Shown: one piece after another, positions 18,467-54,622 of the stretch
Numbering within the stretch: position 1 is the stretch's first letter
Layout: every line of letters starts with the position of its first letter
Assembly: GCA_003153435.1 (NCBI GenBank)
Contig: PLYR01000069.1
Span: 1-54,622, forward strand
Reading direction: 5' to 3'
DNA from: Bacteroidota bacterium
GTDB lineage: Bacteria; Bacteroidota; Bacteroidia; Palsa-965
DNA: 54,622 bases
The notes under the pieces: model-generated
Database searches by the model: none
What the model was told of the DNA's origin: nothing
What the model saw: the letters and a program-made list of their open reading frames with translations, nothing else
Position numbers and translations under genes: made by a program

Positions 18467-18529
18467 TATTTAGACTACTTTAGTTTGAGAATACAAACCT
18501 TACCAACGACTCAAACTAATTTCAGACAC

Positions 18530-19948
18530 TTGAAAAAGATTATTGTCACACTGTTCTCTGCGCTGTTACTGATGCCTTTCACAGGCCACAGCCAGCTCAC
18601 AATCAACATTACTTCTGCTTATCAATACACCCCATTAAAGGATTCCCTCTTTCTTTCCGGCACTTTTAATGCCTGGGTGGTGAATAGCCCGGCTTATGTA
18701 TTCAGTCGTACCGGTCTTAACACCTTTTCCATTACCATCAACCCTGCCCCTGGGGCACTTCAGTTTAAGGTTACCAGAGGGTCGTGGACCTATGTGGAGG
18801 CCAACTCCACCGGTGGAACAATCTCAAACAGATCATACACATACGCCGGTGGACCCGCTACCCTGAATATTCAGATTGCCGGATGGCAGGATATCGGAGG
18901 AACCGCTTCTCCGACCAGCGCCAGCCCTAATGTTTATTTTTTGGATACCGACTTTCCCATCCCTCAGCTCAGCACCTCAAGAAGAATATGGATTTATCTT
19001 CCCCCTGATTATGTCACCTCCTCCAAGAAATATCCTGTCTTATATATGCACGACGGCCAGAACCTCTTCGATGTCTCTACCTCCTTTTCAGGAGAATGGA
19101 GGGTCGATGAATCGCTCGATAGTCTGTTCTCTATCGGCGACTGGGGCATTATTGTAGTGGGAATTGACAACGGGGGTGCTAACAGAATCAACGAGCTTTC
19201 TCCCTGGAATAATCCTTCCTATGGAGGGGGTGAAGGTGGTAAGTACATGGATTTTATAGAGCATAACCTCAAACCCTATATTGATAGTAATTTCAGAACC
19301 TATACCATTCCAAAATTTAATGGCATCATGGGTAGCTCCATGGGTGGTTTAATTTCTCAATACGGAGGTGTTGATTACCAGCAAAGCATTAAGAAGGTGG
19401 GCTTGCTCTCTCCTTCTTTTTGGTTTACCGATACCATTTTCCAGTTTGTCCATCAAATTCCTATACAACCGGATATGAAATTCTATTTTGTTTCGGGCAC
19501 AACTGAAGACTCAAGCATGGTTCCATTAATGATGGCGATGAGGGATAGCGTCATTGCCGGTGGACTGAGCCCTGCGAGAACGAAACTTTTGACTTGGGCC
19601 GATGGGCAGCATGCGGAATGGTTCTGGGCCCGGGAGTTTCCTGCAGCCTACCTTTGGCTCTTCAACGACCTTAACCTCGTTACTAGTGTCGCCCCTGAAA
19701 GAACTCCAGAACAGCCTTTCAAGCTTTACCCGAATCCTGCCTCCGAAGGTATCTACCTGGAAACAGGAAGCTTGGAGGAGGAATGGACATTTGCGCTGTA
19801 TACCATGCAGGGCACCTTGATCTCAGAAAGTCGGGTGAAGGGAAACCTCTTTTTTGGTACTTCCTCCTTTTCCGCCGGTGGCTATTTTGTAAAAGCAAGC
19901 ATTGGAGATCGTGCTATATTCTGGAAAAAGCTCCTGATTTGTCATTAA
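18530..19948 (+). CDS. Secreted CE1-like esterase (alpha/beta hydrolase) with T9SS type A sorting domain
   Basis: A 472-residue exported esterase. A TTG at 18530 gives a clean signal peptide (KKIIVTLFSALLLMPFTGHSQ-type). The longer TTG at 18485 adds a hydrophilic stretch and would overlap a TACTTTAG -7-like element at 18475-18482. Next comes an Ig/CBM-like domain with DSLFLSGTFNAW, then a putative-esterase fold with RRIWIYLPPDY, YPVLYMHDGQNLFD, the nucleophile elbow MGSSMGG (Ser about 269) and a likely catalytic His in WADGQHAEWFW. The end (FKLYPNPASEGIYLE, then GYFVKA) is a T9SS type A domain. Likely acts on acylated polysaccharides or siderophore-like esters outside the cell. Confidence 0.9.
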   Translation: MKKIIVTLFSALLLMPFTGHSQLTINITSAYQYTPLKDSLFLSGTFNAWVVNSPAYVFSRTGLNTFSITINPAPGALQFKVTRGSWTYVEANSTGGTISNRSYTYAGGPATLNIQIAGWQDIGGTASPTSASPNVYFLDTDFPIPQLSTSRRIWIYLPPDYVTSSKKYPVLYMHDGQNLFDVSTSFSGEWRVDESLDSLFSIGDWGIIVVGIDNGGANRINELSPWNNPSYGGGEGGKYMDFIEHNLKPYIDSNFRTYTIPKFNGIMGSSMGGLISQYGGVDYQQSIKKVGLLSPSFWFTDTIFQFVHQIPIQPDMKFYFVSGTTEDSSMVPLMMAMRDSVIAGGLSPARTKLLTWADGQHAEWFWAREFPAAYLWLFNDLNLVTSVAPERTPEQPFKLYPNPASEGIYLETGSLEEEWTFALYTMQGTLISESRVKGNLFFGTSSFSAGGYFVKASIGDRAIFWKKLLICH

Positions 19949-20060
19949 TTCGCAATATTTAACATCAATAAAACCTGTTTTATAAGGGTAGTTTGCTTTT
20001 TTTTTCCCAATTTTCCGCCCGCATACCGAAAAACAGAATCCTTAAACTTAACCCAACAAG

Positions 20061-21461
20061 ATGAAAACAAAATTACTTATTGCTGCATTCACGCTTGGAT
20101 TTGCCGTAACGAATCTGAAAGCTCAGATTGTTCTTCAAAGCGATTTCGAAACCTGGACCTCCGGAACTGTTGCTGGATGGAACGGATCAAAGACCAACAT
20201 CACCTCCACTCCTGACTCTGCAAACCAAGAAACAGTTACTCCTTACCATGGAACCTCTTGCGTAAGGCTGGTGAACGCGACTACCACTTCCAAACGTTTC
20301 ACCACACAGCCAATCGCTGTTACAGCCGGAACTGTTTATTCCATGCGTTTTTGGGCAAGAGGAGCTGGCAGCCTTCGTACTGGCTTATATGGAGCAAGAC
20401 AATCAACCGGGTTTGGTTATGAGTACAACTCCTACATCACCGTTGGCTCACCTACATGGACTGTTTATACGCAAACTCTGGTTGCAGATAGCACGAATGC
20501 AAATGCTCAGTTTATGTTTTCTGTGAAAAGCACTGTTGCAGCAAGCGGAAATGTGGATGTTGACAGTGTCACCATCACCAAAATTGGTACGGTACCAGCG
20601 GTATCTCTTTATAATATTCAGTATACACTCGCTACCCCTGCAAACTCTCCTTATATGAATCAGTTTGTAACAACCAGCGGTATCGTTACTGCTGTGTATA
20701 ACGGCAGCACCGGAACTCAATCGGGTTATTATATTCAAACTACCGGAGCCACTTCGTGGGCTGCGGCCAATATCTATGATTATTCACATATCGTCAACAT
20801 TGGCGACAGTGTTGTTTTTTCTGCTCAAGTAACAGAATACTACAATGAAACAGAACTTCAGAGTGTCGTTAACTTCACTAAAGTTTCATCTGGCAATCCT
20901 GTTCCTGCTCCAACTGTTGTGGATATGACTACCATTCAGGGTGAAAAGTATGAAGGCATGCTGGTAAAGGTAAACAACACTTCATGTGTAAGATATAATA
21001 CCGCACAGGCCTGGTACGTTTTCAATGATGCCACCACAGGAATAGACACCGTTGACAATATCATTTATACTTATAGCTATACCATCGGAAAAAAATATGA
21101 CATCACAGGCGTGGTTCACTTTGAGTACGCCAACTGGATAGAGCCCCGTTTTATTGCAGATGTGGATTCGATCCATGTAAGTTCCGGCATCCAGGAGATG
21201 AACAACTTCTCGGGTTTCAATGCATACCCAAACCCAAATAACGGTTCTTTTAATGTTGTTTTGACTGCCGAGAAAACAGCACAGAACTCCAACATCACAC
21301 TGCGTGATTTAACCGGGAGAATCATTTACCAGGAACAAAGAGATGCTAATCAGGGAGAAAATACCTGGCAGATCAATATCGCTGGTCTTGCTAAAGGCTT
21401 CTACTTCCTCGAAGTAAGCAATACAGAGGCAAAGGCTGTCCAGAAGATTACTGTCGAATAA
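20061..21461 (+). CDS. Secreted protein with carbohydrate-binding-like and OB-fold modules and T9SS type A sorting domain
   Basis: A 466-residue exported protein. Signal peptide MKTKLLIAAFTLGFAVTNLKAQ. Residues about 24-175 form a jelly-roll of the CBM4/9 type (LQSDFETWTSGTVAGWNG, then GTSCVRLVN and YSMRFWARG). Residues about 185-385 hold OB-fold-like repeats (VTTSGIVTAVYNGSTGTQSG, GDSVVFSAQVTEYY, GMLVKVNNTS), as found beside secreted nucleases. The last 80 residues (FNAYPNPNNGSFNVV, TLRDLTGRIIYQE, KGFYFLEV) are the T9SS type A signal. No catalytic domain is present, so a binding role is inferred. A strong terminator follows. Confidence 0.85.
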   Translation: MKTKLLIAAFTLGFAVTNLKAQIVLQSDFETWTSGTVAGWNGSKTNITSTPDSANQETVTPYHGTSCVRLVNATTTSKRFTTQPIAVTAGTVYSMRFWARGAGSLRTGLYGARQSTGFGYEYNSYITVGSPTWTVYTQTLVADSTNANAQFMFSVKSTVAASGNVDVDSVTITKIGTVPAVSLYNIQYTLATPANSPYMNQFVTTSGIVTAVYNGSTGTQSGYYIQTTGATSWAAANIYDYSHIVNIGDSVVFSAQVTEYYNETELQSVVNFTKVSSGNPVPAPTVVDMTTIQGEKYEGMLVKVNNTSCVRYNTAQAWYVFNDATTGIDTVDNIIYTYSYTIGKKYDITGVVHFEYANWIEPRFIADVDSIHVSSGIQEMNNFSGFNAYPNPNNGSFNVVLTAEKTAQNSNITLRDLTGRIIYQEQRDANQGENTWQINIAGLAKGFYFLEVSNTEAKAVQKITVE

Positions 21462-21480
21462 TTATTACTTTGAATATAAA

Positions 21481-21518
21481 AAAAGCCGCCTCAACAGATC
21501 GTTGAGGCGGCTTTTTTT
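21481..21518 (+). terminator. Strong intrinsic terminator
   Basis: A perfect 15-base stem (21481-21495 with 21501-21515, core GCCGCCTCAAC / GTTGAGGCGGC) has a five-base loop and runs into eight T. The A-run on the other side makes it bidirectional. Confidence 0.95.
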
Positions 21519-21565
21519 TGGGTTCGTCTTTTAATTTGTAAATTTACAAGAGTGGATTCCGCCCT

Positions 21566-22036
21566 ATGCAAAAAAAACTTTATCCATTCGTCCCTCTTTT
21601 GTGTTGGGCACTGCTGAGTGGAAGTGGCTCCTGTAAAAAAGATGGCGCCCCCACATACAATAATGTAGCAGTTACATTTTCCCTGATTGAATATAATACC
21701 GGCCCCTATGCTGCCGGAACATGGTCCACCGGCACCAAAATCAGAATCCGGTATGCGGGAACAATCATCGACAGCCTTACCTCCCTTTATGGTGCTTTTA
21801 ATCTCCCAAGGAGTACGCCCATTGCCAATGCATGCACAGAGCCCCTGAATAAAATCACTCATACCTTCAAGATGCAGAGCAACGTCATCAACAGCCTTGA
21901 ATTTATTGACCAATATGGAATTAGAATAAGTTATGACCTTACCGCAGCAGCCATTTATACTGGAAGTGCGAGCGATACAACTACCGGCAATCTATCGAAT
22001 ACAGGATGCCATTTATCGGTGTTTCCTGTCCGGTAA
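21566..22036 (+). CDS. Putative lipoprotein of unknown function
   Basis: A 156-residue protein with a lipoprotein signal peptide: the stretch ending LLSGSGSC places the acylated Cys at about residue 23. The mature domain is Thr/Ser-rich and beta-type (VAVTFSLIEYNTGPYAAGTW, then IRIRYAGTIIDSLTSLYGAF). No family is recognised. It begins 48 bases after the strong terminator and converges on the Kelch protein gene. Confidence 0.65.
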   Translation: MQKKLYPFVPLLCWALLSGSGSCKKDGAPTYNNVAVTFSLIEYNTGPYAAGTWSTGTKIRIRYAGTIIDSLTSLYGAFNLPRSTPIANACTEPLNKITHTFKMQSNVINSLEFIDQYGIRISYDLTAAAIYTGSASDTTTGNLSNTGCHLSVFPVR

Positions 22037-22060
22037 TGTTTTCCACACTATTTAAGGGGC

Positions 22061-22089
22061 AATAAAAAAGAAAGGGGCCTTCAGCCCCT
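22061..22089 (-). terminator. Terminator between convergent genes, best on minus strand
   Basis: AGGGGC (22073-22078) pairs with GCCCCT (22084-22089) across a five-base loop. Read on the minus strand the stem is followed by TTTCTTTTTTATT, a good U-tract for the Kelch gene. The plus-strand side is weaker. Confidence 0.65.
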
Positions 22090-22114
22090 CTTGATATTCT
22101 TTGAATCGTTCTTG

Positions 22115-23803
22115 TTATCTCAGCAGGGTCAGGAAACCTCTATTGATGTTCTCCACATTTTTACTGTTTACAGTAGTGATCAGATAATAGTAAGTGCCTT
22201 CCGAACATGCTTTGCCGACCAGGTTTTTATTTCCGTTCCATGGTGTCGTAGGGTCTGTGCTTTCAAAGACATTCACACCCCAGCGGTCAAAGATTTTAAT
22301 TTCATAGCTTTTGAAGCAGAGGGCCGTTACATTAAAGAGGTCATTTTCCCGGTCTCCGTTAGGAGAAAACACATTGGGAATAAGCAGCTTTTCACAAATG
22401 ACCGGCGGAGGATTCGGTTCGGGATTCTTGGTCGAAGTCGTACAGAGATGCACACAGTTTGTGTCGGGACGATACATCCACAAATCGTTAAAACAAATGG
22501 AAAGTCCGAAATCCTGCTCTCCTCCAAACATCCATAAGTTGCCATTATGGTCTTTCCAGGTAACCGCACCATTCCTTGCAGGAGGAATATTTGTTGCTGC
22601 AGAAACACCCTTTGTTCCATAACTTCCAGAAGCGTTCGGAACATTTGTACCTGAAACCCATGTAAATTTTTTGTCATCACAGTTATAATACCAAAGGTTG
22701 TCAAAACTGTATGGGTCAATATATCCTCCGTAAAACCAGAATCCACAAGAGTCGGCCCATGACGCGCGGATCTCCATGGCCGCAGCCGGAATATTGGTCG
22801 TAACGGTGTCGCATCGGAGATTATATTGTCCAGGGTCATTCACGCTTGTTGTTCCTCCATAGTATGCCCAACCTCCCGTTGTAGTATTATACCTCCACAC
22901 ATCATTCGTATAGGTACTCAAAGCAATTGTTGCACCAAATAACCAGAGGTGACCGACAGGATCAATAAAACTAGTATATCCTGTACGTGAACCGGGGGTA
23001 TACGCTGTGCTCTCGACCCCAAGTGCTCCGTAGTTGGCAGAAGTGCTTCCCGATCCGGAACCTTGAACCCAGGTCCAGATACCCGTTGCTATGTTATATT
23101 TCCAGAGATTGTCGCTGATCATCCCTCCGACACCAGAAGCATATCCGCCAAAAAACCAGAGATTATTAGAAGCATCGGTCCAGCAAAGATGTGCTTCGCC
23201 AGTTGAAGCCGGAGCATTGGTTGGAGAAGGCACACCTAGTGTTCCATAATTACCAGACATGCTACCATACATCGAACCGCTCATCCAAGTCCACTGCAGC
23301 GTAGTGGGATTAAACTTCCATAAATCTCCCAGATAACCCGTAATGCCAGTTGCGTCATAACCATACCCACCATACAACCAGAAGTTACCATTCAGATCAG
23401 TCCAACTCAACATTCCATACCCTCTGGACCCTGGTACATTTCCGGGCGCCGGAACCCCTTGTGTTCCATATGTCGCTTGACCAAATGGTGTGTTTTGTCC
23501 TGCCATCCAGGCCCATTGTTTGGAGGTAATATCAAATTTCCACATGGTATTGTAAATCGTTCCTCCGCTTTGACCACCTCCAAAAAGCCAAAAATTTCCG
23601 GAAGCGTCGGTCCAGCTGCATGATTCATATAATGCAGGGGGAGTATTTCCTGGTGAGGCAACACCCAGGGCTCCGAATACTCCTGGTGAGTTCGTCGAGT
23701 TGTTTCCACTCTGCCAAACCCACTGGCCAGGTGTTTGTGCTTTCGTTTGAAACGAAACAAATGCAAAAAACAGGAGGAGAAATACTATGCTTTTCTTATT
23801 CAT
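22115..23803 (-). CDS. Secreted Kelch-type propeller protein with gliding-motility-associated (T9SS type B) C-terminal domain
   Basis: A 562-residue exported protein. Signal peptide MNKKSIVFLLLFFAFVSFQTKAQ. About six Kelch-like blades follow, each with a W-x-W-x-x-G strand, a GxxGVPxPxNxPxSR-type loop and NLWFFGGY. They are spaced about 70 residues apart and form a propeller. The last 90 residues read LLIPNVFSPNGDRENDLF, YEIKIFDRWGVNVFES, and YYYLITT, the CHU_C / type B sorting domain. Type B cargo is usually attached to or released at the cell surface. The ligand is unknown. Confidence 0.92.
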   Translation of the reverse strand: MNKKSIVFLLLFFAFVSFQTKAQTPGQWVWQSGNNSTNSPGVFGALGVASPGNTPPALYESCSWTDASGNFWLFGGGQSGGTIYNTMWKFDITSKQWAWMAGQNTPFGQATYGTQGVPAPGNVPGSRGYGMLSWTDLNGNFWLYGGYGYDATGITGYLGDLWKFNPTTLQWTWMSGSMYGSMSGNYGTLGVPSPTNAPASTGEAHLCWTDASNNLWFFGGYASGVGGMISDNLWKYNIATGIWTWVQGSGSGSTSANYGALGVESTAYTPGSRTGYTSFIDPVGHLWLFGATIALSTYTNDVWRYNTTTGGWAYYGGTTSVNDPGQYNLRCDTVTTNIPAAAMEIRASWADSCGFWFYGGYIDPYSFDNLWYYNCDDKKFTWVSGTNVPNASGSYGTKGVSAATNIPPARNGAVTWKDHNGNLWMFGGEQDFGLSICFNDLWMYRPDTNCVHLCTTSTKNPEPNPPPVICEKLLIPNVFSPNGDRENDLFNVTALCFKSYEIKIFDRWGVNVFESTDPTTPWNGNKNLVGKACSEGTYYYLITTVNSKNVENINRGFLTLLR

Positions 23804-38601: not shown

Positions 38602-38617
38602 TGTTTCACGTGAAACA
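38602..38617. promoter_or_regulatory. parS site, perfect (TGTTTCACGTGAAACA)
   Basis: An exact 16-base match to the canonical parS palindrome bound by ParB, in the intergenic region beyond the methyltransferase gene stop. It is one of three such sites within 1.05 kb. Confidence 0.85.
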
Positions 38618-38653
38618 CTAGTTGTTTTCTGAAGAGGATTATGTGGGCGTGAG

Positions 38654-38677
38654 CAAAAAAAGGCCCCATTGGGGCCT
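38654..38677 (-). terminator. Intrinsic terminator of the methyltransferase gene
   Basis: On the minus strand AGGCCCC (complement of 38671-38677) pairs with GGGGCCT (complement of 38661-38667) across a three-base loop, followed by a T run (complement of 38655-38660). Confidence 0.85.
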
Positions 38678-38701
38678 CTGACAACAGAACAATTAATCGC
38701 C

Positions 38702-39586
38702 CTATTCCTTTTTAAGGAGATAGATTTGACTAGAGCTAGTATGCCCATTTGCACCTGCACTCCAATTAGAAAGAGTGCCTTGAAACAAGGCTCTAAGAAG
38801 ACGGGGTCGTCCTGCTTTATACTTTTCACTTAACATACTTACGTAATAGGAATCAAACTTCATAGGAAGAATTGATTGGACTTTAAACCCATGCTTACTA
38901 AATAGATTCTTGATATCCGCAGGAGAAAAATGATACAGATGACGAGGAACATCATATGCAGCCCAAAACTCCTTGTAGTGTTTCGCATCTCTCGACTCGC
39001 AATTAGGCACTGCAATCAGGGCAACCCCCGTAGATTTAAGAAGACGTTGAAGGTCTTTAACCCTTTCTACCAGGTTAGGAACGTGTTCTAAAACATGCCA
39101 CATTGTTATAACATCAAAGGACTCCGAAGGCAATTTGTCCATTTCTTCTTCCGAAAAAACAGACAGATTGAAGTTCTTTTTGGCTTGAGCCGATGCCATT
39201 TCGCTAGGTTCAATTCCTTTTCCTTTCCATCCCGCTGAGACACAAGCATTAAGAAACTCTCCGGTACCGCAGCCAATATCCAGGATCTGACCTATTGCCG
39301 ACTCTGCATTAATCTTAGCCACCTTCCCTTTGAGAGTATAGGTGCGGACCTTTTTATATAGCCAGTTGATTAGTCCTTTACTAGAATTGGAGTGGGATAT
39401 ATAATCTTCAGACAGATAATACCTAGCAAGTTCGTCTACTCCGGGACGCGGATTGGTGAACCGAAAACCACAGGAAGCACAACGAACTATAGAAAATGTT
39501 TCACGTGAAACGGTATAGTCTTTACAAATTAAGAATGGCAAAAGGTCTTGGCCATTACAAATAGGACAGTTTTTCAAAGTATCCAT
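38702..39586 (-). CDS. Zinc-ribbon class I SAM-dependent methyltransferase
   Basis: A 294-residue methyltransferase of the Methyltransf_23 type. The N-terminal zinc ribbon has CPICNGQD (Cys7/Cys10) and VRCASCGFRF. Motif I is ILDIGCGTGEFLNACVSAGW near residue 100, followed by GIEPSEMASAQA and WHVLEHVPNLVERV. The region AVPNCES and WAAYDVPRHLYHF is typical of this subgroup, which often modifies sugars or lipids. A parS site lies inside the gene (39497-39512), where it encodes Val-Ser-Arg-Glu-Thr. The stop is followed by a strong terminator, and the start is 70 bases from the mnmG stop. Confidence 0.9.
   Translation of the reverse strand: MDTLKNCPICNGQDLLPFLICKDYTVSRETFSIVRCASCGFRFTNPRPGVDELARYYLSEDYISHSNSSKGLINWLYKKVRTYTLKGKVAKINAESAIGQILDIGCGTGEFLNACVSAGWKGKGIEPSEMASAQAKKNFNLSVFSEEEMDKLPSESFDVITMWHVLEHVPNLVERVKDLQRLLKSTGVALIAVPNCESRDAKHYKEFWAAYDVPRHLYHFSPADIKNLFSKHGFKVQSILPMKFDSYYVSMLSEKYKAGRPRLLRALFQGTLSNWSAGANGHTSSSQIYLLKKE
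39497..39512. promoter_or_regulatory. parS site, 15/16 match, inside the methyltransferase gene
   Basis: TGTTTCACGTGAAACG differs from the canonical palindrome at one outer base. It lies in the N-terminal part of the gene (the Val-Ser-Arg-Glu-Thr stretch), so its conservation is under both coding and binding constraints if real. Confidence 0.75.
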
Positions 39587-39640
39587 AGAGAAGGGAGAGT
39601 ATAAATGGAAATTAGAGTTCCAATTTGTGACGATGGTGAG

Positions 39641-39656
39641 GGTTACACGTGAAACA
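39641..39656. promoter_or_regulatory. parS-like site, 14/16 match, abutting the mnmG stop
   Basis: GGTTACACGTGAAACA keeps the central CACGTGAAAC core and differs at two bases from the canonical palindrome. It ends at 39656, directly next to the mnmG stop codon (39657-39659). Confidence 0.6.
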
Positions 39657-41522
39657 TTAGCGACCCAGATAGACCATCAAAATAGAGATGTCGGAAGGGG
39701 AGATGCCTGAAATTCGAGCGGCCTGACCAATCGTCATGGGTTGAACTTTACTAAGTTTTTCTCTTGCCTCATTCGAAAGTGAGGTCAATTGGGAATATTG
39801 AAAATCGGTACCAAGCCTTATGTTTTCCAGGCGCAAAATCTTTTCAGCCACTTCGTGCTCCTTGACAATATATCCTTCATATTTCATCAAGATCTCTGCT
39901 TCCTCAATGGTTTCCATTTCGTATTTCAAAATATAGTCTTTGAAAACAGGGTTGTCGGAGGCGAAATCAAGAATGGTAATATCGGGTCTTGTCAAAACTC
40001 CAAACATCTTTACTTTTTGGTTGATGGGGGCGGAGCCCAGTATTTCAAGTGTTGGGTTAATCTCTTCAGGGCTTATGCTCTCCGATTTGAAATACTGAAT
40101 AATCTCACAGGTTCCCTTAAGCTTCTTTTCAACGCGCTCCATTTGTTCTTTCTTCGCAAGGCCCAGATCAAACGCTCGTGGAGTTAGCCTGATGTCGGCA
40201 TTATCTTGTCGCAAAAGAATCCTGTATTCCGCACGGGAGGTAAACATGCGATAGGGTTCGTCCGTTCCTTTCGTCACCAGATCGTCAATCAAAACGCCAA
40301 TATATGCTTCTGAACGTCCGAGAATAAATGGATCTGATTCAGTTATTTTAAGGTGTGCATTAATGCCTGCCATCAATCCTTGGCAAGCAGCTTCCTCATA
40401 ACCGGTAGTCCCATTAATTTGGCCTGCAAGATATAAATTTGGTATTGCCTTGGCTTCTAATGTAAGCTGCAGTTGCTGCGGGGGAAAATAATCATATTCA
40501 ATAGCATAACCCGGCCTAAACATTTTACATTTTTCGAATCCGGGGATTTTCTTAAGTGCCTCATACTGAGTTCTTTCATCTAAAGAAGTGGAAAATCCAT
40601 TTAAGTAAATCTCAACAGTGTTCCATCCTTCAGGTTCTACAAAGAGCTGATGTCTAGTTCTTTCCGCAAAGCGGGTAATCTTATCTTCAATGCTTGGACA
40701 ATATCTTGGCCCTAACCCCTTTATCCGCCCTGAAAACATGGGCGATTTTTCGAAACCGGTTCTTAACAGGTCATGAACCGAGTCATTGGTATACGCGACA
40801 TAACAAGGCAACTGAGTAGTAAGTGGTTTAGTTTTTCCCGAGAAGGAAAATTTCCCGGGTGTTTCATCCCCAGTCTGTATTTCCATTTTCGAATAATCCA
40901 GAGAGCGTCCATCGATTCTTGGAGGAGTGCCTGTTTTCATGCGGCCACCTTCCATGCCGAGACTTACAAGTTGTTCCGTTATTCCTGTTGACGATTTTTC
41001 TCCCGTTCTCCCTCCTCCAAACTGTTTTTCTCCAATATGAATGATTCCATTAAGAAATGTACCATTTGTCAGCACAACCGCCTTAGACCTAATCTTAATT
41101 CCCAAACCGGTAACAATTCCGCAACAGCGCCCTTCTTCAATCAGCAAACCCTTTACCATATCCTGGAAAAAATCAACGTTTGGGGTATTTTCCAACATTT
41201 GTCTCCATTCCTGAGCAAAAAGCGTTCTATCGTTCTGTGTTCTGGGGCTCCACATCGCCGCTCCTTTCGATTTATTAAGCATCCTGAACTGGATGGCCGA
41301 TCTATCGCTTACAATACCCGAATAGCCTCCCAGAGCGTCAATTTCGCGAACGATTTGACCCTTTGCGATACCTCCCATAGCTGGATTGCAACTCATCTGA
41401 GCGATCGTTTGCATGTTCATGGTAACTAGCATAACTTTCGACCCAAGATTAGCTGCCGCTGCTGCTGCCTCACAGCCGGCATGCCCAGCACCTACCACTA
41501 TCACATCATATTCTGAAAACAT
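39657..41522 (-). CDS. mnmG: MnmG (GidA), tRNA uridine-34 modification FAD protein
   Basis: A 621-residue protein that with MnmE installs the 5-carboxymethylaminomethyl group on wobble uridine of certain tRNAs. The FAD-binding motif VVGAGHAGCEAAAAAANLG opens the chain near residues 9-27. Later parts include CNPAMGGIAKGQIVREIDALGG, PPRIDGRSLDYSKME, and the C-terminal YSQLTSLSNEAREKLSKVQP with TIGQAARISGISPSDI. ATG 41522 fits the family start better than an in-frame TTG at 41561. A -7 element sits 28 bases upstream. In many bacteria this gene lies near oriC and parAB. Confidence 0.97.
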   Translation of the reverse strand: MFSEYDVIVVGAGHAGCEAAAAAANLGSKVMLVTMNMQTIAQMSCNPAMGGIAKGQIVREIDALGGYSGIVSDRSAIQFRMLNKSKGAAMWSPRTQNDRTLFAQEWRQMLENTPNVDFFQDMVKGLLIEEGRCCGIVTGLGIKIRSKAVVLTNGTFLNGIIHIGEKQFGGGRTGEKSSTGITEQLVSLGMEGGRMKTGTPPRIDGRSLDYSKMEIQTGDETPGKFSFSGKTKPLTTQLPCYVAYTNDSVHDLLRTGFEKSPMFSGRIKGLGPRYCPSIEDKITRFAERTRHQLFVEPEGWNTVEIYLNGFSTSLDERTQYEALKKIPGFEKCKMFRPGYAIEYDYFPPQQLQLTLEAKAIPNLYLAGQINGTTGYEEAACQGLMAGINAHLKITESDPFILGRSEAYIGVLIDDLVTKGTDEPYRMFTSRAEYRILLRQDNADIRLTPRAFDLGLAKKEQMERVEKKLKGTCEIIQYFKSESISPEEINPTLEILGSAPINQKVKMFGVLTRPDITILDFASDNPVFKDYILKYEMETIEEAEILMKYEGYIVKEHEVAEKILRLENIRLGTDFQYSQLTSLSNEAREKLSKVQPMTIGQAARISGISPSDISILMVYLGR

Positions 41523-41549
41523 TTGAATTAGCTTTTTTTGAAAGGGTGA

Positions 41550-41557
41550 CAAATTTA
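41550..41557 (-). promoter_or_regulatory. -7 element TAAATTTG for mnmG (minus strand)
   Basis: An exact TAnnTTTG match on the minus strand, 27 bases upstream of ATG 41522. It supports independent transcription of mnmG. Confidence 0.45.
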
Positions 41558-41617
41558 ACAATATTTTCTCTTTATCTCTGTTACCTTCCTGATAATTAGA
41601 CGTATTGGAAGCAACGA

Positions 41618-42445
41618 TTAGAGTATGACCACCTTCAATCTAAAATTACGTCTAGCTAAGACTGCATAGGGTGCCGAGGAATAGGTATCTATATAAAGCA
41701 AATCCAGCACCGGTAGGTCTGAGAGGCAGGAAGCCAGGGTACCCACATTTCCGCTGTACGCTATATCAAGCTCTTGAAGATTCTCCATTTGGCAAATCTC
41801 CGGTGGGATAGAAGGAAGTACATTCTTACCAATATATAAAAATTTCATTTTTTTTAGATTTCCAATCGAAGAAGGGATAGACGAAATAACATTATGATCA
41901 ATATAAAGTTGTTCAAGTTTTATGCATTTCCCTATTCCATTGGGGACTTTTGCAAGATAGTTATAGGACACAAATAATTGCTCAAGATTTACAAGCCCTT
42001 CAATTTCCCCAGGCAATTCTTTTAGTTTGTTATCCTTTATAGATAACTCCTTGAGCTTTGTCAACATTCCAATAGAGGTAGGTAATACTGTTAAACAATT
42101 ACTGCTTAACAAAAGGTGCTCAAGTGATGTAAGGTCGCCGATTTCGATTGGAAGCTCAACAAGCCTATTCCTAAAAATATTCAGCCGCTTTAGTTTCTTT
42201 AGTTGGCCCAATTCCTTTGGAAGAAAATGTAAGTTGTTATTGTTTAGTTCAAGCTCTTCGAGATTGATAAGTTTGCCGATCTCCGGGCCGAGGCTGTCTA
42301 AACCTTTGTACGAAAGTTTTAAATGATAGACTTGTTGAGGATGTATGAGGGCTTGTTTAAGATCCTTATAAACGGTATTGTTTCGTTGACTGAATCCCAA
42401 AGTATAGTTGGTTATGAAAAGAAGAAATAAAAATCGCTTTTGCAT
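41618..42445 (-). CDS. Exported leucine-rich-repeat protein
   Basis: A 275-residue protein with a signal peptide (about 1-19, FLFLLFITNYTLGFSQ). About eight LRR units of 23 residues (NLEELELNNNNLHFLPKELGQL, KLKELSIKDNKLKELPGEI) form a horseshoe. The LxxLPxxIGxL pattern is the bacterial plant-disease-type LRR. It begins 13 bases after the nadA stop, so both share an operon. Its role, probably protein binding, is unknown. Confidence 0.88.
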   Translation of the reverse strand: MQKRFLFLLFITNYTLGFSQRNNTVYKDLKQALIHPQQVYHLKLSYKGLDSLGPEIGKLINLEELELNNNNLHFLPKELGQLKKLKRLNIFRNRLVELPIEIGDLTSLEHLLLSSNCLTVLPTSIGMLTKLKELSIKDNKLKELPGEIEGLVNLEQLFVSYNYLAKVPNGIGKCIKLEQLYIDHNVISSIPSSIGNLKKMKFLYIGKNVLPSIPPEICQMENLQELDIAYSGNVGTLASCLSDLPVLDLLYIDTYSSAPYAVLARRNFRLKVVIL

Positions 42446-43445: not shown

Positions 43446-43922
43446 TTTTTATTTAACTATATATATTATTTATATTCTTTAAAAGATTTATAATAGTAAT
43501 AATAGGGTGTTGAAACGGTTGAAAAAAATTATATGATACATTTGCTCAATCACTTATTCACATCAGGAACGAGGTTGTAAACGTGTTATAAGAATCAAAT
43601 GATCTGATACAGAATATAATGTATTGTTTTTAACAAGTTTTGAGCTTAGGCCTAAAACCGTAATTGTTATTTAAATTTTCTCCAATTCTCTTAACAAAGG
43701 TGTTCATTTTTTACTGAATAGTAGGTGAATTCTTTTAGGCAGTAATCGAAAGAATTTTTAAGAGAATTAGTTCCTGCATAAAACAAGTCTTTTTTACATT
43801 TAGTTAATAACCGCTTTTAACTAAATTAATAGATAACCTGTTAATAAAATTAAAACTACCAGATTTACAGTCACTTGCATATATTTTGCATTTTTACTCT
43901 GAAAATAATTACGCCAGCCTAC
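43446..43922. other. AT-rich divergent intergenic region with one DnaA-box-like 9-mer
   Basis: About 477 bases separate leftward nadA from rightward rpiB. The region is markedly AT-rich, has several short AT direct repeats (GTTAATAA twice near 43803-43845), and one TTATTCACA (43554-43562) that matches the DnaA-box consensus TTATNCACA. No gene, tRNA or strong hairpin is seen. It may simply hold two promoters, but see the findings for an origin hypothesis. Confidence 0.5.
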
Positions 43923-51751: not shown

Positions 51752-54622
51752 CTAATGAAGAAGGTTACAGACACCCGTAAAGGCGTGGCTGCCACCAAGG
51801 AAATCTTTTACAGTGCATTTCCATACATAGGTATCAATCTGCGCAGTCCGGTCTCCGTTATTCGCTTTTCCATCCCAACCCTCATCCCAGATTTTGGTTT
51901 CCCACATGAGGTTACCCCAGCGGTCGAACATCATCATATGATAGGAGGAGGGATCAATGCCTAATCCTAATGGTTTCCAGATATCGTTTTTATTATCTCC
52001 ATTTGGAGTAAAAGCGTTAGGCGCATAGAAGCTGAAGTCAGGATGGATGCAAAGCGGGCCTGTAGCTGTATCGGTACATCCGAATGTATTTGTAACAATC
52101 AACAGAGATGTAAAGCAACCGGTATCAGGGTAAGTGTATTGAGGATTCTGGATGGTAGATGACGCTCCTGTAAAGTCACCGAAGTTCCAGTTCCAACTGG
52201 TAGCTCCAATGCTATGATCTATAAATGAAATTTCTGATAAAACAATGGTAGCAGGCTGAGGTCCCAACGTAAATGCAGCTTCCGGAGTTGGCCAGGCATC
52301 AATGTAATTGCTTCGTGTAAGTGAATTCTTACATCCATGAATATCGGTTACATTTTGTGTTACTGAATAAGTGCCTGGTTGAGTATAACAATGAAGCACA
52401 GAATTGCAACCCGTTCCTGAACTACCATCGCCGAACACCCACGCAGCGTTTGCACAGGCCGGATTAGAAAGCCCGTTGAAAGAAACACATAATTGTACAC
52501 AGCCCGAGGTATCATTTGCGGTAAAGAGAACGGTAGGAGTAGGGTAGATGGTCACCGTATCGGTGGCTTGGGCCAAAGGAGTACCACAACCGTCTTTGAC
52601 AACAACCGTGTAAATGGTTGTGGTGACAGGATTAGATACAGGATTTGAAATTGTAGTGTTGTTCAGGCCAAGTGCGGTGGACCAGGAATACGAAAAATTG
52701 CCATCTCCTCCGCTTGCCGTCGCATGCAGTTGTACAATTCCTCCTGCACAAACGGATGAGTCGCCCGTGGCCACAACCAGAAGTGGAGGGCGAACAGTAA
52801 CAAGAACCGGCATTGGTGCAGAAACACAATTGTTATTATCACTTGCGATAACGGTGTAGGTTGTAGTCACCACCGGGCAAGCCGGGGAAGGCGCAACAGC
52901 TACACCCACAGTCCAGGCATAGGTATAGCCCGGTGTACCTCCGGTTGCTGTTGAGGTGAGCGGAATGCACTGACCAATGCATAGTGTAAGGGGAGCCATA
53001 GGGCTGGCCACAACAGGAGTGGGCTGCTGAATAAGCACAGAGTCTTTGCTGAAACAGCCCCTTGCATCGGTGACGGTGAAATAATAAGTACCAGCACTCA
53101 GATTCTTCGCGGTGTCAATAGCGCTCACGGCAGGGGCTGTCCAGAGGTAAGCATATGGCATTGTTCCGCCGGCACCACCAGCGACGGCCGAACCGTTTGA
53201 ACCACCGAAGCAAGATGGACTAACATCAGAAACAACCTGAGCTCGCACTCCCGGGGTATTTCCAACAGCCAATGAATCTTTTGCAATACACCCGTTTGCA
53301 TCATGGACCGTTACCACGTAAACTCCCGGAGTCACGTTGTCATAACCAGAAAGAGCAGATCCCGCACCGGGTGTCCACGAATAGGAATAACCCAGTGCCG
53401 CTGGAGATCCTCCCGTAGCAAATACAGAATCTGTTCCATCAGCATGCATACAATGTGCAGGAACGGCAAACATGCTAAGTGTAATTGCCGTTGGTTGTGT
53501 GATTATAGTAGTGCCGTTTACTGTGCAACCGTTTGCATCTGTTACGGTCACAGAATAAGTACCCGCACAGTTGTTGTTACAACTCGGGGTTATACATCCG
53601 GTGTTCCAGGAATAGGTATAAGGAGAGACCCCTCCAGCCGGGATACAGATAAGGACTCCGTCGCAGCTTCCAAGGCACTTTGTTGCAACGCCGGCAACGG
53701 AAACAGAGAGAAGGACAGGCTGGGTAATTTTAATAGAGTCAACTTGAATGCATCCGTTTGCGTCTGTGGCCGTCACTGTATATTCTCCTGCGGTCAGCCC
53801 ATTGGCGGTAGCGGTGAGGATTCCGGAAGGGTTCCAGGCGTAATTCAAAGCGCCTGTTCCTCCGGAAGCAACAGCAGTTGCTGATCCTGTGTTTCCTCCG
53901 TTACAAAGGACGTTCGTTGAAGCCGGAATCGAAAGAGTAATTGCAGTAGGTTGAGTAATAGGAGTACTTATAGCAGCAGAGCAGCCATTTGCATCCGTGA
54001 CGGTACACGTATATGTTCCTGGACAAAGGCCTGTTGCGTTGGCTGTTGTTCCTCCGGATGGTGTCCATGAGTATGTAATAACCCCTGTTCCTCCTGTTAC
54101 CGTTACAGCAGCAGTGCCGTTGCAGACGCCAAAGCATGTTACGTTCTTAACCACACCAAGAGCAACTGTTGGTCCTCCTTGATTTACAATTGTCGCATTC
54201 ACAGAGACCGTACAGGCGTTAGCATCCGTGACCACACAGGTATAAGTTCCGACAGCAAGGCCTGGTACCGTTGCTGTTAAAGCGCCTCCTGGCGACCATG
54301 AATATGCATAGGGTCCGTTTCCTCCATTACCGGTAGCTGTTACAGATCCATTGGGGTTGCCACAGGTGGATACTGTTGTAGAAGAGGTTGCCGTAAGTGC
54401 TGTTGGCTGGGTAATGGTTACTGTAAACCCGCTATTACATCCAACAGCATCGTTTACAACGCAAGTATACAAACCGGCCGTAAGTGATGTTGCTGTTGTA
54501 GCGGCTCCGCCAAAAGGGGACCAGGAATAAGAAAGAGCTCCTGTTCCTCCGGAAGCGGTGATGGTTGCTGATCCAGTATTAGAACCATTGCACAATATAT
54601 TTACCTGAGCAATGGAGCCAAT
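51752..54622 (-). CDS. Very large SprB-repeat / PKD surface protein with T9SS type B domain (N-terminus outside window)
   Basis: The visible 957 residues are the C-terminal part of a giant adhesin-like protein, as the frame stays open to the window edge. About seven SprB repeats of 70-80 residues (consensus CxGxCxGxAxVTxxGG, YSWxPxG, GTYTVTVTDANGC, ITQPTAI) are followed by an Ig-like and two PKD-like domains (AWVFGDGSSGTGCNS, SWNWNFGDF). The last 90 residues (FYAPNAFTPNGDNKNDIW, YHMMMFDRWGNLMWE, VYVWKCTVKD-like) form a CHU_C / T9SS type B domain. Repeats like these are used by mobile surface adhesins such as SprB in gliding. No start is present. Confidence 0.93.
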   Translation of the reverse strand: MGSIAQVNILCNGSNTGSATITASGGTGALSYSWSPFGGAATTATSLTAGLYTCVVNDAVGCNSGFTVTITQPTALTATSSTTVSTCGNPNGSVTATGNGGNGPYAYSWSPGGALTATVPGLAVGTYTCVVTDANACTVSVNATIVNQGGPTVALGVVKNVTCFGVCNGTAAVTVTGGTGVITYSWTPSGGTTANATGLCPGTYTCTVTDANGCSAAISTPITQPTAITLSIPASTNVLCNGGNTGSATAVASGGTGALNYAWNPSGILTATANGLTAGEYTVTATDANGCIQVDSIKITQPVLLSVSVAGVATKCLGSCDGVLICIPAGGVSPYTYSWNTGCITPSCNNNCAGTYSVTVTDANGCTVNGTTIITQPTAITLSMFAVPAHCMHADGTDSVFATGGSPAALGYSYSWTPGAGSALSGYDNVTPGVYVVTVHDANGCIAKDSLAVGNTPGVRAQVVSDVSPSCFGGSNGSAVAGGAGGTMPYAYLWTAPAVSAIDTAKNLSAGTYYFTVTDARGCFSKDSVLIQQPTPVVASPMAPLTLCIGQCIPLTSTATGGTPGYTYAWTVGVAVAPSPACPVVTTTYTVIASDNNNCVSAPMPVLVTVRPPLLVVATGDSSVCAGGIVQLHATASGGDGNFSYSWSTALGLNNTTISNPVSNPVTTTIYTVVVKDGCGTPLAQATDTVTIYPTPTVLFTANDTSGCVQLCVSFNGLSNPACANAAWVFGDGSSGTGCNSVLHCYTQPGTYSVTQNVTDIHGCKNSLTRSNYIDAWPTPEAAFTLGPQPATIVLSEISFIDHSIGATSWNWNFGDFTGASSTIQNPQYTYPDTGCFTSLLIVTNTFGCTDTATGPLCIHPDFSFYAPNAFTPNGDNKNDIWKPLGLGIDPSSYHMMMFDRWGNLMWETKIWDEGWDGKANNGDRTAQIDTYVWKCTVKDFLGGSHAFTGVCNLLH

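Follow-up and report, generated by a model that had tools for sequence, protein, structure and literature searches.

The window considered here, that is the whole stretch of 54,622 nucleotides that was analysed, carries mnmG (gidA), the gene of a tRNA-modifying enzyme (39657..41561, minus strand; TIGR00136, 807 bits), followed on the same strand by the gene of a SAM-dependent methyltransferase of 294 aa (Methyltransf_23; 38702..39586, minus strand), the N-terminus of which shows a zinc-ribbon-like C-x2-C ... C-x2-C motif. Just 3' of the methyltransferase gene there is a hairpin with a T-run (38659..38679, minus strand), which resembles an intrinsic terminator by pattern match only. Three parS-like palindromes, to which no strand is assigned, are found along these genes. 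Site 1 (38602..38617) is the perfect 16-mer TGTTTCACGTGAAACA in the spacer past the methyltransferase terminator. Site 2 (39497..39512; TGTTTCACGTGAAACG, one mismatch) lies inside the methyltransferase gene, where it reads GTT TCA CGT GAA ACA and encodes Val-Ser-Arg-Glu-Thr at codons 26-30. Site 3 (39641..39656; GGTTACACGTGAAACA, two mismatches) is found in the 70 bp that separate mnmG from the methyltransferase start, immediately beside the stop codon of mnmG (complement TTA, 39657-39659). The positions and mismatches of the three sites, the peptide encoded by site 2 within the zinc-ribbon methyltransferase gene, and the ending of site 3 at the mnmG stop had been described in an earlier note on this DNA and are all confirmed.

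The window contains exactly three matches to TGTTTCACGTGAAACA at up to three mismatches (with 0, 1, and 2 mismatches), while shuffled windows gave a mean of 0.34 parS-like matches and none of 100 shuffles reached three. When compared with the 16-bp palindrome TGTTNCACGTGNAACA, the core GTTNCACGTGNAAC is exact at all three sites, and site 3 departs from the palindrome at two tolerated positions. The genome scan proposed in the earlier note covered the Bacteroidota draft of 4,018,676 bases in 149 contigs (98% complete) and returned three exact GTTNCACGTGNAAC sites, all of them in a single 1,055-bp segment of the window. From base composition, 0.21 exact occurrences of the degenerate 14-mer are expected genome-wide, and 0.0014 of the perfect 16-mer, whose chance occurrence in the window the earlier note had called very unlikely. 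With one mismatch allowed, GTTNCACGTGNAAC has eight further, scattered matches in the genome, and a reversed control pattern has seven; hence, the genome shows no background of such sites. Dozens of scattered matches, named in the same note as the outcome that would speak against a centromere, were looked for throughout the genome and not seen, and this test therefore favours the note.

The genome encodes one ParB above the TIGR00180 cut-off (178 bits), on another contig (G000:C82). The search for ParB found no match within the window, in agreement with the earlier observation that neither parA nor parB is present there. In the parB locus, a partial parA that lies at the edge of the contig precedes parB, and dapB and two signal peptidases (lepB) follow; the partial ORF next to parB is the candidate ParA partner, with matches to the ParA superfamily of which none exceeds a curated cut-off. 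Two positions in the helix-turn-helix of ParB separate the readers of parS from Noc (PMC7383237). At these positions, the ParB of this genome has Arg and Gly (SKTRSAVTN ... SMGHARA), so that a cognate ParB with parS-specific residues is present in the same genome, and the same pair was found in 16 of the 16 ParB loci in which the motif could be parsed, out of 31. A reading of the palindromes as Noc-binding sites (NBS) was rejected, as the protein has the R/G pair in place of the Noc-type Q173 and R201, and its score against the Noc model (232.5 bits) does not reach the 315-bit cut-off. A chromosomal-type ParB is found in 54 of the 59 sampled genomes.

The cumulative GC skew of the contig has its minimum at 42,070, which is 2.4-3.5 kb from the parS cluster. 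A gene for a leucine-rich-repeat protein (41618-42445), located between mnmG and nadA, adjoins this minimum. Similar positions are observed in the two most complete genomes. In G046 (main contig 2.85 Mb) the skew samples are negative as far as 1.32 Mb and positive at 1.36 Mb and beyond, and the parS cluster lies at 1.347 Mb, where the sign changes; in G050 a skew switch occurs within a few kb of parS at 17.7 kb, among other skew changes in that genome. ParB is 733 kb from parS in G046 and about 300 kb in G050, and thus the centromere would be near the skew switch and unlinked from parAB. The distance between dnaA and parS is 427 kb in G046 and 16 kb in G050. The skew evidence from the contig, G046, and G050 places the cluster near the origin, and oriC itself we infer to be the spacer between nadA and rpiB (43446..43874, no strand assigned), which is 75% AT, is alignable at 72% in a congener, and is the nearest long AT-rich spacer to the skew minimum. 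This assignment is kept as putative because DnaA boxes are not enriched in the spacer; the scan of the window found one or two near-boxes there and no cluster. The scan was set aside as an origin marker, as the densest group of boxes in the window lies near 20.4-21 kb, not at dnaA but in and next to the gene of an endonuclease-like protein with a T9SS tag. At 18485-23803 and 51752-54595 the window encodes several secreted proteins, among which are an endonuclease-like and an esterase-like protein, that bear sorting tails of the type IX secretion system.

The arrangement is widespread among relatives. In a sample of 59 genomes, which includes that of the window, exact sites occur in 51 (1-12 per genome, mostly two to four), and by a hand count from the table 45 of these 51 have parS no farther than about 1.5 kb from mnmG, be it at the mnmG start or shortly ahead of it, shortly past the stop, or in the gene that follows. 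In a second, independent set, made up of 80 loci retrieved through the methyltransferase alone, parS is present within 5 kb in 52 of the 62 loci with mnmG as against 1 of the 18 homologues without it. Across the phylum, at least 31 of 392 genomes have parS close to the MnmG start (restricted pattern, within 30 bp of the start motif), a lower bound because the pattern demands certain codons. The presence of ParB and that of parS are imperfectly matched, since the near-complete G021 and G053 have a chromosomal ParB and no exact GTTNCACGTGNAAC site, and G045 has parS sites and no ParB detected in its draft; the parS of G021 and G053 may have diverged. In G045, of which a congener (G613) has ParB, the sites form a tandem array of 99-bp units with one parS (TGTTCCACGTGGAACA) each (L103:13202-13823 and L115:8996-9265). 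This array lies at contig ends (C24, C40), adjoins ybeY, is located about 0.9 kb upstream of mnmG, counts at least 10 parS in all, and has the appearance of a satellite-like chromosomal centromere.

Site 2 raises the question, already put in the earlier note, of how one stretch could satisfy both the protein and ParB. Among 395 genomes of the class searched with the pattern C-x-D-x-x-V-S-R-E-T-F/Y, any codons being accepted, the homologues with VSRET at this position spell GTTTCACGTGAAAC in 32 of 32 genomes from 10 genera. The third base of the Thr codon, which the palindrome core does not include, can be A, G, T, or C, and the codons of the flanking Cys, Asp, Thr, and Phe vary as well. Homologues without the site have other residues and codons (VSKES, VSQES, LTKED), L083 replaces Glu with Gly and retains a valid parS variant (GTTTCACGTGGAAC), and L084, L092, and L229 carry GTTTCACATGAAAC (VSHET), one base away from parS. 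A set of 128 distinct methyltransferase genes contains 47 parS sites, compared with a mean of 0.9 and a maximum of 3 after synonymous shuffling of the same genes, which keeps protein and codon usage. These sites are found at codon 26 (33), codon 265 (9), codon 96 (4), and codon 47 (1). For example, those at codon 96 encode VSRGT before the SAM-binding motif (L108, L211, L212, L216), and those at codon 265 encode STWNG in another frame near the C-terminus (L090, L110, L188-L190). The site counts are not a random sample, since the search that selected for VSRET supplied 19 of the 33 genes with a codon-26 site; even so, shuffling of this very set of genes yields 0.9. Likewise, the mnmG coding sequences hold nine parS sites, compared with 0.1 after synonymous shuffling. 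Codon identity within the group that bears the site is circular by construction, while the VSRET codon search and the synonymous shuffle are not. Codon choice is thus frozen along precisely the palindrome, and the sites are lost on synonymous shuffling; both results bear out the idea that one stretch serves the protein and ParB at once.

The three palindromes are very probably chromosomal parS sites that together make up the centromere of this Bacteroidota chromosome. The sites are unique in the genome, clustered, near the skew switch, and kept beside mnmG across the class, and a cognate ParB is present, all of which argue for this reading. A different account could be that they serve as operators, at which ParB or another palindrome binder represses or insulates the mnmG-methyltransferase operon, segregation being secondary or absent. 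Many relatives do have sites a short way upstream of mnmG or directly past its stop, places that would suit an operator, and ParB is reported to affect promoters near some parS sites of Pseudomonas aeruginosa (PMC5521831); however, the sites of the window are all downstream of mnmG, one being in a coding region and one past the operon terminator, and their sequence is that of canonical parS. Moreover, the sequence is constant from genome to genome while its position moves, a behaviour more in keeping with a centromere than with an operator. Regulation as the main role is very improbable.

Site 2 might, in turn, be a by-product of protein constraint, if the methyltransferase requires VSRET and the match at the DNA level is incidental. 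The family does favour V-S-x-E here even without parS, but protein demand alone would account poorly for 32 of 32 VSRET homologues using the parS-spelling codons next to variable Thr third bases and flanks, for the other residues and codons of site-less genomes, for the Gly of L083 within a valid parS variant, or for 47 in-gene sites against 0.9 on shuffling, and this explanation is very improbable. Least credible is that the sites are due to chance or are relics without present function. The GTTTCACATGAAAC versions in L084, L092, and L229 are one base decayed, so the sites do decay; against this stand their conservation across many families and the occurrence of three exact sites in 1.05 kb where 0.21 are expected in the whole genome.

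For the centromere, characterised ParABS systems suggest how it would work. The one chromosomal ParB, whose gene lies on a different contig, would load on parS and slide out over the mnmG-methyltransferase block, and ParA would move the ParB complex, and with it the adjacent newly replicated origin region, to the daughter cells. By this analogy, we infer that ParB binds at the three sites and that these act in segregation. For the Bacteroidia in general, the balance tips towards a centromere that stays beside mnmG with parAB far away, and towards selection for ParB-DNA binding that shapes the neighbouring methyltransferase, parS having been placed repeatedly at VSRET 26, VSRGT 96, and STWNG 265, with amino acids changed where needed.

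Chromosomal parS centromeres are an already known kind of element, and the notable part here is the overlap with coding sequence. The 16-bp palindrome is the same as in the ParABS systems of Bacillus subtilis, Caulobacter, and P. aeruginosa (parS TGTTNCACGTGAAACA), which share with the present case several clustered sites near the origin and a chromosomal-family ParB with the Arg/Gly pair. Unlike in those systems, the sites here are around mnmG, away from parAB, and occur repeatedly at fixed codons of a single gene. The spo0J gene of B. subtilis, which is the parB gene itself, contains a parS site. It thus offers a precedent for parS within coding sequence, whereas in the present case the host gene encodes an unrelated methyltransferase, in whose family parS has three alternative fixed positions. 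In Bacteroidota gut isolates studied by Hi-C, clustered parS of the same consensus and GC skew place ori, dnaA is not always at ori, and known condensin is reported to be absent from the two Bacteroidetes concerned; the consulted passages of this source, unlike the present analysis, say nothing of gene context, of linkage to mnmG, or of overlap with coding sequence (PMC10197239). No description of linkage to mnmG instead of parAB, or of fixed in-gene positions, was found in the open literature, the main parS survey being outside the scope of that search; little was found there on parS placement in Bacteroidota, and an earlier listing of such sites is possible. As a class-wide landmark, parS beside mnmG could locate the centromere, and roughly the origin, in draft genomes and in contigs from metagenomes, for which dnaA is not a reliable guide. 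The sites within the gene could also provide a clean natural test of DNA-binding against protein constraint at single-codon resolution.

The codon-26 site requires at least six changes on the MnmG tree (102 loci), two of which are forced by well-supported branches. Lutimonas halocynthiae has the site within a supported flavobacterial group whose other members are without it. This history fits repeated gain, repeated loss, or both, on a tree in which many forks are unresolved. In the same tree the family of the window (f1; L065-L071 and the mnmG of the window) is split, its genus grouping with f19 and f7 and not with g2 and g3, which may reflect weak resolution or a transfer of the mnmG block.
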